From the NCBI GenBank assembly GCA_028872875.1, contig JAGWOC010000026.1:1-36804 (forward strand): a DNA stretch of 36,804 nucleotides. Reading direction: 5' to 3'. Source of the DNA: Chloroflexota bacterium. Lineage in GTDB: Bacteria > Chloroflexota > Dehalococcoidia > DSTF01 > JACRBR01. The notes under the pieces were generated by a model. That model saw only the letters and a program-made list of their open reading frames with translations, searched no databases and was not told the DNA's origin. A program made the position numbers and the translations under genes. This document shows, in pieces, positions 2,077 through 23,526 of the stretch; within the stretch, counting starts at the first letter, position 1, and every line of letters begins with the position of its first letter.

Positions 2077-2328
2077 GCGGCGGGCCGACCGCGGCAACGG
2101 ACTGGAGGTAGACGCGTGATTCATCGGCGCGAGTCCGGGGACGGGCGCGAGGAAGGAGCAGGGATGGCGGGAGACGAGGTCCAGGCACGGGGACGCGCCG
2201 GAGGAGCGCGGCGGCGCGGCCAGCGCCCGCACACAGGCGACCACCCGCCGCCGCGGTACCGGCAGTCGGCGATGTTCGAAGAAGAAGTGCAGGAACTCCG
2301 ACGCGAGCAGGAGCAGAGGGAGGCGATG

Positions 2329-3435
2329 ATGACCCGGAGCTATTCAGACGGACTGCCGCCGATCAAGGTCGTCGGCGTCGGCGGCGGCGGCTGCAACGCC
2401 GTCAACCGCATGATCGCCGAGCAGATCGCCGGCGTGCAGTACGTCGCCGTGAACACGGACGCACAGGCGCTCGGGCTGTCGCCGGCGGAGGTGCGGATCC
2501 GGATCGGCGACAAGATCACGAAGGGGCTCGGCGTCGGCGGCGACCCCGGGCGCGGCCTCCGCGCGGCTGAGGAGAGCCGCGACGAGCTGTTCGAGGCCGT
2601 CCGCGGCGCCGAGATGGTGTTCGTCACCGCGGGCATGGGCGGCGGCACCGGCACGGGCGCTTCGCCGATCGTCGCCGAGGTCGCCAAGGAGGCGGGGGCG
2701 CTGACGATCGGCGTCGTCACGAAGCCATTTGGCTTCGAGGGAGCGAAGCGCCGCGCCAACGCGGAGGAGGGGATCCAGCGGCTCCAGCAGAAGGTCGACA
2801 CGCTCATCGTCATGCCCAACGACCGCCTCCTCGCCACCTGCGACGAGAAGGTGACGCTCGACGAGGCGTTCCGGACGGCCGACGACGTGCTGCTGCAGGG
2901 CATCCAGGGCATCAGCGAGATCATCACCCTGCCGGGCGAGATCAACCTCGACTTCGCCGACGTACGCAGGATCATGGCCGAGGCCGGCCCGGCGCTGATG
3001 GCGATCGGCCGGGGCAGCGGCCAGAACCGCGCGGCGGAGGCGGCGCAGATGGCGATCGCCAGCCCGCTGCTCGACGTGTCAATCAACGGCGCCAAGGGCG
3101 TGCTGTTCAACATCACGGGTGGCAAGAACCTGGGGCTGCACGAAGTGAACGCGGCCGCGCAGGTGATCCAGGGCGTCGTCGACCCGGACGCCGAGATCAT
3201 CTTCGGCACCGCGATCGACCCGAAGATCGGCGACGAGGTGAAGATCACGGTGATCGCGACCGGCTTCGCGCGGCCCGTAGCGGTGCAGGCGATCCCGGAA
3301 GAGTACCGGCGCCAGATCCCCGGCGACGACGCCCCGGACGCGCCGGAGGCAGCGCCCCGGCGGCTCGCCGTCGAGCCGAACCCGAACGACACGGAGCTAC
3401 CGACGTTCCTGCGCCGCACCGTGGCGGCGCGCTAG
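2329..3435 (+). CDS. ftsZ: Cell division GTPase FtsZ
   Basis: Tubulin-like GTPase that forms the Z ring. Seen: the N-terminal nucleotide-binding [15 protein letters not shown] region, the tubulin signature [10 protein letters not shown] at about residue 102, the T7 loop [11 protein letters not shown] at about 206, and a conserved C-terminal peptide TELPTFLRR that binds FtsA and other partners. From ATG 2329 the protein is 368 residues, normal for the family; AGGGAGG at 2317-2323 lies 5 nt upstream. The frame is also open to GTG 2116, ATG 2164 and ATG 2272. The first two have good Shine-Dalgarno sites (GGAGGT at 2104; GGAAGGAG at 2151), so an N-terminal extension of up to 71 charged, disordered residues cannot be excluded. 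Confidence 0.96.
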
Positions 3436-3854
3436 GAGCGTGGGCAGGACTGGGAAGGAGGTGCCTGTCTAGCCAGTGCCCGGAGGTCCGCCTCCGGGAG
3501 CTTTCCCCCACCAGGGAAAGGCAGCGGGCCGTGAGCGGCGTATTGGGAGATGGCGCCGCTCACGGCCTGTCCATCTCTCCCCCGTCGCGCGAGACGCGCG
3601 CGACGGGGAGAAGAAGAGTAGCCCGACCCGGTGACGTGGCACGGGCAGGTACCACGAAACCGGGAACCTGGGCTACGGCGCGATTGTACCGCAGACGACC
3701 CGAGCATTCCACAACTCAGACGCCCTGTCCCTCTGGCAACTGGCAGAGAGCGGCCCGTCATCTCACGCCGTCTCGCGGTCGCCCGCCGGAGTCCGCCTGG
3801 CTCGGCGGGGGCGGCACGATAGGGGCCCGTGCCCCATCTGCGGGGGATGGCGGC
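3436..3854 (+). other. Gene-free spacer with six strong consecutive hairpins (candidate structured RNA)
   Basis: No convincing gene lies between ftsZ and the nrdR promoter. Inverted repeats read directly from the sequence: 3441-3448 with 3464-3471 (two G-U pairs); 3479-3486 with 3491-3498, closed by a TCCG (UNCG-type) tetraloop; 3501-3507 with 3514-3520; 3527-3540 with 3554-3567 (14 perfect pairs, extendable to 17 with wobbles); 3577-3591 with 3597-3610 (one bulge); and 3618-3676, three stacked helices of 7, 6 and 4 pairs separated by asymmetric internal loops. A further 10-pair hairpin with one bulge lies at 3829-3856. None is followed by a T run. Some may be ftsZ terminators; the dense array and the stacked last hairpin would also fit a non-coding RNA. 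I could not match it to RNase P RNA, tmRNA, SRP RNA or a known riboswitch. Confidence 0.5.
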
Positions 3855-3915
3855 ACAAGATATAGTGGGTTGAGCGGTGATTATGGTTGACAAGCACCAG
3901 ATGTGGTGCTACGCT
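3855..3915 (+). promoter_or_regulatory. nrdR promoter with two NrdR-box-like sites
   Basis: Sigma70-type promoter: TTGACA at 3887-3892, 17-nt spacer, TACGCT at 3910-3915. Two 14-nt related sites, ACAAGATATAGTGG (3855-3868) and ACCAGATGTGGTGC (3896-3909), agree at 10 positions and resemble the AT-centred NrdR box. Their start-to-start distance is 41 nt, close to four helical turns, and the second fills the -35/-10 spacer. Inference: NrdR represses its own transcription, and perhaps the genes downstream to nrdJ. Confidence 0.65.
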
Positions 3916-5806: not shown

Positions 5807-8560
5807 ATGGTCCTCCAGGCCGAGCCGGAAACACGCAGAACTCTCGCCCACCCGGGCTCTACCATCGAGCGCTTCTTCACGCGCGCCGGCGAAGACCCGT
5901 TCGCGGCGCTCGAGTGGGAACACCGCACCGCCGTGATCGCCGATGAGAGCGGCAACGCATTCTTCGAGCAGAAGGACGTCGAGATCCCGAAGACGTGGTC
6001 GCAGACGGCGACCAACGTCGTCGTGTCCAAGTACTTCCGCGGGCCGCTCGGCAGCGACCGGCGCGAGCGCAGCGTGCGCCAGCTCGTGGGACGCGTCGTC
6101 GACACGATCACCAACTGGGGGATGAAGGACGGCTACTTCGTCGACACGGACGAGGCGCAGACGTTCCGCGACGAGCTGACGCACCTGCTGGTCAACCAGA
6201 AGATGGCGTTCAACAGCCCCGTCTGGTTCAACGTCGGCGTCGAGCCGCACCCCCAGTGCTCGGCCTGCTTCATCCTCTCGGTCGAGGACACGATGGAGTC
6301 GATCCTGGACTGGTGCAAGACGGAGGGGATGATCTTCAAGGGTGGCTCCGGCTCGGGCATCAACCTGTCGCCGATCCGGTCGAGCAAGGAGCAGCTTTCC
6401 GCCGGCGGGCAGGCGAGCGGCCCGATCAGCTTCATGCGAGGCGCCGACAGCATCGCCGGCTCGATCAAGTCGGGTGGCAAGACCCGGCGGGCGGCGAAGA
6501 TGGTCATCCTGAACGCGGACCACCCGGACATCGAGGAGTTCATCGACTGCAAGGTGAACGAGGAGCGGAAGGCGTACGCGCTGGGCGCCGCCGGCTGGGA
6601 CATGTCGCTGAACGGGGACGCCTGGGCCTCCGTGCAGTTTCAGAACGCGAACAACTCGGTCCGGGTGACGGACGCCTTCATGGAGGCGGCGGTGGAGGGG
6701 CGGCAGTGGGCGCTCACGAACGTGGTCGACGGCGGCACCGCGCAGACGCTCAACGCGCGCGACCTGCTGCGGCGGATGGCCGCGGCGGCGTGGGAGTGCG
6801 GCGACCCCGGCATGCAGTACGACACGACGATCAACGACTGGCACACGTGCGCGAACACGGCGCGGATCAACGCGAGCAACCCGTGCTCGGAGTACATGCA
6901 CGTCGACAACAGCGCGTGTAACCTGGCGTCGCTCAACCTGATGAAGTTCGCCGATGACGACGGGCGCCTCGACGCGGAGGCGTTCCGCCGCGCCGTCGCA
7001 GTGACGATCTGGGCGCAGGAGATCATCGTCGGCAACTCGAGCTACCCGACGGAGACGATCGCACGGAACACGCGCGCGATGCGGCAGCTCGGTCTTGGAT
7101 ACGCGAACCTCGGCGCGCTGCTGATGTCGCGCGGCGTGCCGTACGACTCCGACGAAGGCCGCGCCTACGCCGCGGCGATCACCGCGCTGATGACCGGACA
7201 CGCGTACGCGACGTCGGCGGCGATCGCGCAGCGCGTCGGACCGTTCGACGCGTTCCACGAAAATCGCGAGCCGATGTTGCGTGTGGTTGCAAAACATCGT
7301 GACGCATCGCGTACAATGAATGCGGCGCTGACGGACGGCGAGCTGATCGCCGCGGCGCAACAGGCGTGGGACGATGCGCTGGATCTGGGATCGAAGTTCG
7401 GATACCGCAACGCGCAGGCGACGGTGCTCGCGCCGACGGGGACGATCGCGTTCATGATGGACTGCGACACGACGGGCGTGGAGCCGGACATCGCGCTCGT
7501 GAAGTACAAGAAGCTCGTCGGCGGCGGCATGATCAAGATCGTCAACCACACCGTGCCGCGGGCGCTCCGCCGGCTCGGATATCAGCCGGCGGAGGTCGAG
7601 GCGATCGTCCGCCACATCAACGAGCACGAAACGATCGAGGGCGCGCCCGGGCTGCGCGAGGAACACCTGCCGGTGTTCGACTGCGCGTTCAAGCCGGAGA
7701 ACGGGAACCGCTTCATCCACCACCTGGGCCACATCAAGATGATGGGGGCCGTGCAGCCGTTCATCTCGGGCGCCATCTCCAAGACGGTCAACCTGCCGAA
7801 CGAGGCCACGGTGGACGACGTAGCGGACGCCTATGTGGAGGCGTGGCGGCACGGGCTGAAGGCGATCGCCATCTACCGCGACGGCTCCAAGAAGGTGCAG
7901 CCGCTCTCTACGTCGAAGGGCGAGACGAACGGCGGCCAGGCGACGGACGCCAAGCCCGTGCGGCGCAAGATGAGCGACACGCGGAACTCGATCACGCACA
8001 AGTTCAGCATCGAGGGCCACGACGGCTACATCACGGTGGGGCTGTACGACGACGGCACGCCGGGCGAGATCTTCCTCTCCATGGCGAAGCAGGGCTCGAC
8101 GGTGAGCGGGCTGATGGAGGCGTTCGGGCGCGCGGTGTCCTACGCGCTGCAGTACGGCGTGCCCCTGCAGGACCTGGTGCGCAACTTCAGCCACATGCGC
8201 TTCGAGCCGACCGGCCGGACGGAGAACCGCGACATCCCGGTGGCGCAGTCGATCATCGACTACGTGTTCCGCTGGCTGGCGAGCCGGTACATGTCCGCGG
8301 AAGAGGCGTATGAGGTCGGCGTGATGACGCCACAGATCAAGGCGGCACTGGCAGCGGGACAGTACCCGCTCCCGATCGGAGCGCCCGACGCCGGGCGCGG
8401 CGATGCGGGCGCGGCCGGGCCGGTGCCGGCGATCTACCACGCGCCGCGCGCGAACGGTCACGCGGACGCACCCGCCTGCGCGAACTGCGGGTGGATCATG
8501 ATTCGGTCGGGGACGTGTTACCGCTGTGAGAACTGCGGTAGCACGAGTGGCTGCTCCTAA
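5807..8560 (+). CDS. nrdJ: Adenosylcobalamin-dependent ribonucleoside-diphosphate reductase (class II)
   Basis: Reduces ribonucleotides to deoxyribonucleotides using an adenosylcobalamin-derived thiyl radical; needs no oxygen and no small subunit. Seen in 917 residues: a redox cysteine in QCSACFILSVEDTM (about residue 150); the active-site loop NPCSEYMHVDNSACNLASLNL (about 358) with the family's Asn, radical Cys, Glu and second redox Cys; the phosphate-binding ATVLAPTGTIAFMMDCDTTG region near 540; a TSCPD domain (about 725-850); and a C-terminal zinc ribbon CANCGW...CYRCENCG that probably shuttles reducing equivalents. ATG 5807 is preceded by AAAGGA at 5790; longer readings overlap the previous gene. 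No cobalamin riboswitch is visible upstream, so NrdR may be the main control. Confidence 0.96.
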   Translation: MVLQAEPETRRTLAHPGSTIERFFTRAGEDPFAALEWEHRTAVIADESGNAFFEQKDVEIPKTWSQTATNVVVSKYFRGPLGSDRRERSVRQLVGRVVDTITNWGMKDGYFVDTDEAQTFRDELTHLLVNQKMAFNSPVWFNVGVEPHPQCSACFILSVEDTMESILDWCKTEGMIFKGGSGSGINLSPIRSSKEQLSAGGQASGPISFMRGADSIAGSIKSGGKTRRAAKMVILNADHPDIEEFIDCKVNEERKAYALGAAGWDMSLNGDAWASVQFQNANNSVRVTDAFMEAAVEGRQWALTNVVDGGTAQTLNARDLLRRMAAAAWECGDPGMQYDTTINDWHTCANTARINASNPCSEYMHVDNSACNLASLNLMKFADDDGRLDAEAFRRAVAVTIWAQEIIVGNSSYPTETIARNTRAMRQLGLGYANLGALLMSRGVPYDSDEGRAYAAAITALMTGHAYATSAAIAQRVGPFDAFHENREPMLRVVAKHRDASRTMNAALTDGELIAAAQQAWDDALDLGSKFGYRNAQATVLAPTGTIAFMMDCDTTGVEPDIALVKYKKLVGGGMIKIVNHTVPRALRRLGYQPAEVEAIVRHINEHETIEGAPGLREEHLPVFDCAFKPENGNRFIHHLGHIKMMGAVQPFISGAISKTVNLPNEATVDDVADAYVEAWRHGLKAIAIYRDGSKKVQPLSTSKGETNGGQATDAKPVRRKMSDTRNSITHKFSIEGHDGYITVGLYDDGTPGEIFLSMAKQGSTVSGLMEAFGRAVSYALQYGVPLQDLVRNFSHMRFEPTGRTENRDIPVAQSIIDYVFRWLASRYMSAEEAYEVGVMTPQIKAALAAGQYPLPIGAPDAGRGDAGAAGPVPAIYHAPRANGHADAPACANCGWIMIRSGTCYRCENCGSTSGCS

Positions 8561-8609
8561 CGGTAGGGGCAACAACAACAGGTCAAGGAAGACAGGAGGC
8601 AGGGTCAGT

Positions 8610-8840
8610 ATGGCTGTAACCGCAAAGAAGCCGGCTGCCAGGAAGACGGCAGCCAAGAAGACGACGGCGAGGAAGCCGGCGGCCAAGAAGGCCGCGGCGA
8701 AGAAGCCGGCCGCCCGCAAGACCGCGGCGAAGAAGCCGGCCGCCCGCAAGACCGCGGCGAAGAAGCCGGCGCGGGCCGCCGCCGCGAAGTCGCGCACGGC
8801 AAAGAAGCCGGCCGCCCGCAAGACGGCGGCCAAGAAGTAG
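8610..8840 (+). CDS. Histone H1-like Lys/Ala-rich DNA-binding protein
   Basis: A 76-residue protein made almost wholly of Lys, Ala, Pro, Arg and Thr, in a repeated decamer [10 protein letters not shown] (and variants). This is the composition of the eukaryotic H1 tail and of bacterial H1-like proteins such as Hc1/HctB and mycobacterial HupB tails. Probable role: non-specific DNA binding or compaction; inferred from composition only. ATG 8610 has GGAGG at 8595-8599. It has no globular HU domain, so it is not a truncated HU with its core in frame. It lies 49 nt after nrdJ and is followed by two strong hairpins. Confidence 0.75.
8701..8760 (+). repeat. Perfect tandem 30-bp duplication inside the H1-like gene
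   Basis: Bases 8701-8730 and 8731-8760 are identical and each encodes one ten-residue unit. Diverged copies flank the pair. Exact identity at all 30 bases, including third positions, indicates a recent in-frame slippage event, so repeat number may differ between strains. Confidence 0.9.
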
Positions 8841-23367: not shown

Positions 23368-23388
23368 GAGGGTGTAGCATCATCCGTT

Positions 23389-23470
23389 CTGCGGGAGCTG
23401 GGGTGACGCCCGGCTGAGAGGCCCACGCGGGCGACCGCCGAACCTGATCCGGGTAATGCCGGCGCAGGGA
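23389..23470 (+). promoter_or_regulatory. TPP riboswitch (THI element)
   Basis: Contains the conserved thi-box words GGGGTGACG, GGCTGAGAGG, GAACCTGATCCGGGTAATGCC and GCGCAGGGA in order and spacing. The outer P1 stem is CTGCG (23389-23393) with CGCAG (23463-23467). thiD starts 57 nt downstream. GCCTC at 23478-23482 can pair with GAGGC at 23516-23520, which overlaps the probable thiD ribosome-binding site, so translational control by site masking is plausible (inference). Confidence 0.95.
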
Positions 23471-23526
23471 ACGAGCAGCCTCATCGCTTCCAACCCGACG
23501 CCAGGCTCCCGGTGCGAGGCGCTGTC

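Follow-up and report, generated by a model that had tools for sequence, protein, structure and literature searches.

The window analysed here is a stretch of 36,804 nucleotides (nt) from a Chloroflexota bacterium of the class Dehalococcoidia (contig JAGWOC010000026.1), in which a hairpin-rich spacer lies between ftsZ and nrdR. Comparison of this spacer with its counterparts in related genomes resolves its six hairpins into two separate RNAs on opposite strands and one unconserved hairpin. Element 1, on the plus strand, is by its conservation, plus-strand structure and ftsZ linkage an element of the ftsZ 3′ untranslated region (UTR), while Element 2, on the minus strand, looks like a separate RNA gene of ~65 nt restricted to the source's family. 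A first-pass annotation had read the spacer as a candidate unknown structured RNA; conserved structure, covariation, the lack of an Rfam match and the lack of dispersal of the repetitive extragenic palindromic (REP) kind bear this out, except that one RNA becomes two, plus a hairpin that is not conserved.

Two conserved blocks in the ftsZ–nrdR spacer

The features of the spacer and the preceding gene are as follows.

2272–3435, plus strand: ftsZ, start codon unsettled, identified from its translation and FtsZ C-terminus, with FtsZ relatives found; its message carries Element 1
3452–3572, plus strand: Element 1, structured ftsZ 3′ UTR element (model R2, 132 bits), kept behind ftsZ in families f1, f2, f4, f36, f61 and f23
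3455–3463, plus strand: Shine-Dalgarno (SD)-like box AAGGAGGTG, which can pair with CACCTCCTT of the 16S 3′ end
3465–3474, plus strand: conserved CTGTCTAGCC (alignments, pair counts)
3479–3498, plus strand: P2 hairpin (alignment and fold), variable in length and sequence, a hairpin in every family genome
3501–3520, plus strand: P3 hairpin CTTTCCC-CCACCA-GGGAAAG, conserved in the source's family (alignment, pair counts)
3527–3567, plus strand: P4 long hairpin (covariation, strand bias, model R3), terminator-like, with a weak U tract in the window
3580–3608, no strand assigned: inter-element hairpin, not conserved in the alignment of relatives
3609–3617, minus strand: U-rich tail of Element 2 (TCTTCTTCT), T-rich in 8/8 family genomes
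3618–3676, minus strand: Element 2, a 59-nt hairpin RNA of three helices with a conserved CUGCCC-type loop (model R1, 89 bits; pair counts; strand bias)
3683–3688, minus strand: −10-like TACAAT, 6 nt ahead of the first base of Element 2; TANNNT in 8/8
3706–3714, minus strand: −35-region box TTGTGGAAT, represented in relatives by TTATGGAAA; its distance to the −10 is exactly 17 nt in 8/8

All six stems described in the first-pass annotation are present. Stem 1 pairs GGGCAGG with CCTGTCT (3442–3448 with 3464–3470) and holds the SD-like box in its loop; stem 2, CCCGGAGG-UCCG-CCUCCGGG, carries the UNCG-type loop and corresponds in position to P2, as stem 3 (CTTTCCC/GGGAAAG) does to P3. Stem 4 comprises the 14 pairs of 3527–3540/3554–3567, stem 5 pairs CCCCGTCGC with GCGACGGGG in the inter-element hairpin, and stem 6 is the stretch of three stacked helices at 3618–3676. 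On the plus strand, 3436–3690 folds at −152.3 kcal/mol against −114.7 ± 5.1 for shuffled sequences (RNAfold, z = −7.41), and 0/200 shuffles reach this stability; for the minus strand, z = −6.59.

The spacer is kept behind ftsZ in 7/7 other genomes of the source's family. Two blocks within it are conserved, Element 1 and Element 2, with 74–100% and 78–98% identity to the window, respectively; the 3′ coding DNA of ftsZ shows 62–95%, lower than both blocks in every family genome compared. The ftsZ–nrdR setting originally described holds on the ftsZ side only: nrdR is not immediately downstream in 3/8 family genomes, which links the spacer RNAs to ftsZ and not to nrdR. At one family locus (L028, genome G006, ~750–1190), a gene that reads as pyridoxamine oxidase-type is inserted between the two elements.

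GC-rich inverted repeats in intergenic DNA, one of which (3580–3608) varies among relatives, might be dispersed repeats in the DNA, of the REP type or another, that have no function as RNA. We regard this as extremely improbable, since each element has one locus in this genome, the other spacer matches being chance coding or self-inverted ones, and both elements are fixed behind ftsZ with strand-specific wobble and covariation. No Rfam 15 family matches the spacer at the gathering threshold, in line with the earlier failure to recognise a known RNA, and the permissive hits are microRNA families that match the long hairpin by chance. Two surveys of structured RNAs in the open-access literature do not mention ftsZ, an earlier description elsewhere being possible.

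Element 1 and its long hairpin behind ftsZ

Element 1 is ordered as the SD-like box, CUGUCUAGCC, the two hairpins P2 and P3, and the long hairpin P4. The first four bases of CTGTCTAGCC are able to pair either with GCAG at 3521–3524 (P1, in the family only) or with the upstream GGGCAGG. Model R2 finds the element in 8/8 family genomes, with weaker matches behind ftsZ in f2, f4, f36, f61 and f23, so that it spans at least six Dehalococcoidia families, mostly as a single copy. Reading the region downstream of ftsZ in 90 genomes reveals the 5′ box and CUGUCUARCCGAGC in the Element 1 families; a few further families have the box by itself or together with a portion of this motif. Model R3, built on P4 and searched over 393 genomes of the class, matches 55 genomes at E ≤ 0.05, mostly once per genome, the weakest matches being unchecked. 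The FtsZ C-terminus lies directly upstream at 28 of the 30 best R3 loci by script; at the remaining two, on short contigs, it was seen by eye at their R2 loci, and Element 1 stands behind ftsZ at every locus checked. Outside the Dehalococcoidia the element was not found: the phylum sample gave a single match beyond the class (G666), which appears to lie inside a coding frame. Two f36 genomes each carry two copies in tandem (L166 in G119, L072 in G210), and at L071 (G322) an apparent second ftsZ start follows soon after Element 1, as tandem ftsZ or an assembly effect.

P4 covaries strongly. Across 24 sequences, 96.4% of its cells are paired and 11/15 pairs are compensated, with a covariation score of 0.596 versus 0.214 ± 0.020 for shuffled and ≤0.115 for slid alignments. 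Cells that can pair on one strand only favour the plus strand by 28 to 4. The loop motif, GGGAGA in the window (3545–3550), contains a GGAGA that is invariant in 28/28 (A7) and 24/24 (A8) sequences, all found with models containing the loop.

A simpler account would make P4 and its neighbours a plain intrinsic terminator of ftsZ and Element 2 a terminator of minus-strand transcription. P4 is indeed a long stem past the gene, GC-rich on the plus strand as an intrinsic terminator requires, and a T-rich stretch follows it in several relatives; Element 2, likewise, is closed by its U-rich tail. However, a plain terminator needs no loop held invariant across families, no SD-like box and no CUGUCUAGCC, no T run follows P4 in the window, where its U tract is weak, and Element 2 combines internal loops and a fixed length of 59 nt with a promoter-like start. 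We consider this account unlikely. Reviewed bacterial mRNA 3′ UTR elements and 3′-UTR-derived small RNAs (sRNAs) resemble Element 1 in being structured RNA past a stop codon with a terminator-like hairpin at the end, but Element 1 differs by keeping, across families, an SD-like box that lacks a start codon and an invariant P4 loop (PMC9438474).

The SD-like box pairs with the 3′ end of this genome's own 16S (read in L235). In 16 of the 61 genomes whose FtsZ C-terminus could be recognised, the box falls within 60 nt past the ftsZ stop, against 5, 1, 0, 0 and 1 in later bins. In f36 it sometimes lies inside the ftsZ reading frame (AERR*) and is still retained where ftsZ stops earlier. A coding role for Element 1 was rejected: in the window, the box has no ATG, GTG or TTG at a usual spacing, and the element's lengths in the family (116, 121, 124, 125, 126 and 129 nt) vary out of frame.

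CsrA binds ANGGAN hairpin loops. Element 1 holds two GGA motifs, AAGGAG in the 5′ box, which the window fold places in a loop, and (A/U)GGGAG in the invariant P4 loop, and could thus be a CsrA-binding site or sponge; csrA is found in 19/20 nearest relatives, with two copies in this genome. Over 167 sampled genomes, on the other hand, csrA occurs in only 22, none of them an f36 carrier of Element 1, and the csrA-less f36 carriers include single-contig genomes of 98% completeness. CsrA therefore fails as a general explanation, and we give this reading very little credence. Element 1 shares with CsrA targets and CsrB-type sponges the display of GGA in a hairpin loop, but it has two candidate sites only and many of its carriers lack csrA.

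Element 2 on the minus strand

The stretch 3618–3676, singled out earlier as the most elaborately structured unit, is structured as described but belongs to the minus strand, where it is flanked by a promoter-like sequence and a U-rich tail. Comparison across the family shows a conserved structure, a minus-strand wobble bias and promoter-like and terminator-like geometry for this putative RNA. Its length is 59 nt in 8/8 family genomes; 98% of the cells in its 19 pairs are paired and three pairs are compensated. Cells pairing on one strand only number nine on the minus strand and none on the plus strand, at five column pairs. Upstream, the fixed spacing between the TTATGGAAA-like box and TANNNT is followed by 6–10 nt from the end of the −10 to the helix across the eight genomes. 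Downstream, the T run that the first-pass annotation found wanting is lacking on the plus strand only; on the minus strand, Element 2 runs into TCTTCTTCT in the window and TTTTTT in two relatives.

Model R1, searched over the same 393 class genomes, recovers the eight family members at E ≤ 1e-21, whereas the next match stands at 3e-4. No convincing homologue was found outside the family in this search, the remaining matches (E of 3e-4 or worse) being rejected as mostly coding sequence by eye. Viral contigs sharing an Element 2 15-mer lack a structural match, and no plasmid match was found. A loop–tail pseudoknot in 3618–3676 (CAGGU/ACCUG on the plus strand) was discarded, the complementarity holding in some genomes only, as was the idea of a displaced signal recognition particle (SRP) RNA (RF00169), the SRP RNA sitting at G000:C59:108732–108831. 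No match to 6S RNA (RF00013) was obtained at E ≤ 1 in eight genomes (G000–G005, G008, G009), with positive controls, and Element 2 is therefore not a 6S match. In these eight relatives, 6S RNA is itself either missing or too diverged for the Rfam model.

Since ftsZ-targeting antisense and trans-acting RNAs are already known, and Element 2 adjoins ftsZ and is directed towards it, repression of ftsZ by antisense pairing, as with DicF or StfZ of Escherichia coli, might be considered. StfZ is a cis-antisense RNA to ftsZ (PMC9628754) and, like Element 2, a minus-strand RNA at the ftsZ locus; Element 2, however, lies downstream of the gene without overlap. DicF is an sRNA that acts by pairing with the ftsZ message (PMC5069750); Element 2 is likewise small, of similar size and ftsZ-linked, but in four genomes it pairs with the ftsZ leader no better than with shuffled leaders. 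Antisense repression thus seems quite improbable.

Proposed roles and other features of the window

The explanation we favour, and regard as moderately probable on the comparative evidence, is that Element 1 shapes the 3′ end of the ftsZ mRNA and that Element 2 is a separate convergent sRNA. The two conserved RNAs would converge tail to tail behind ftsZ. P4, at the end of Element 1, would form or protect the mRNA 3′ end, with its invariant loop as the predicted recognition site for a factor, and Element 1 would thereby set 3′-end formation or stability and hence the level of FtsZ. Element 2 would start at a promoter of its own and run towards ftsZ as an sRNA of ~65 nt, terminate through its own closing helix and U-rich tail, and use its conserved loop to act either in trans or through a protein. 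A bolder scheme would make Element 1 a novel type of 3′ UTR control element: the SD-like box, lacking a start codon, would capture 30S subunits behind ftsZ, and recognition of the P4 loop would connect this capture with what becomes of the mRNA 3′ end, so that the level of FtsZ would be tied to the supply of ribosomes, with the convergent sRNA as a tuner. This scheme strikes us as rather improbable.

Several observations weigh against the explanation we favour. A consensus scan of the window gives no promoter, no terminator and no T run behind P4; for Element 2, where the scan is negative, the −35 box departs from consensus and internal loops interrupt the stem. P1 and P3 hold in the source's family only, and P2/P3 are not alignable between families. 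The P4 covariation counts rest on related sequences, and kinship inflates such scores, although the gap to the controls is large. Furthermore, family f36 contains an overlapping minus-strand signal. A 20-pair closing helix there spans Element 1, giving a closed structure of ~155–170 nt (L148, L145, L150 and other loci), and its one-strand cells number 14 minus versus 5 plus, the plus cells lying at the outer edge; the strand picture in f36 is therefore mixed, P4 favouring the plus strand. An extended −10, TGNTANNNT, sits 8 nt before the 5′ arm of the closing helix in 17/19 sequences by script, and in the other two (G129, G322) the motif is visible by eye. These features suggest that in f36 an RNA on the minus strand overlaps the region of the ftsZ 3′ end; the closed structure and Element 2 are dissimilar in sequence.

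FtsZ dosage influences the timing of cell division, and most Dehalococcoidia have not been cultured. With its constant place behind ftsZ in several of the class's families, Element 1 would offer a new candidate point of control over division, with exact, testable motifs, and seeming terminator hairpins can conceal sequence-specific, strand-specific RNA elements.

Beyond the spacer, two NrdR-box-like sequences, ACAAGATATAGTG and ACAAGCACCAGATGTGGTG, lie ahead of nrdR (~3855–3912) and suggest nrdR autoregulation; a B12-type ribonucleotide reductase gene is found further downstream. At the gathering threshold, Rfam gives a single match in the whole window, a thiamine pyrophosphate (TPP) riboswitch (RF00059, 58 bits) at 23381–23488 on the plus strand. 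An open reading frame at 8526–8840, also on the plus strand, encodes Ala/Lys-rich repeats that appear histone H1-like by eye.
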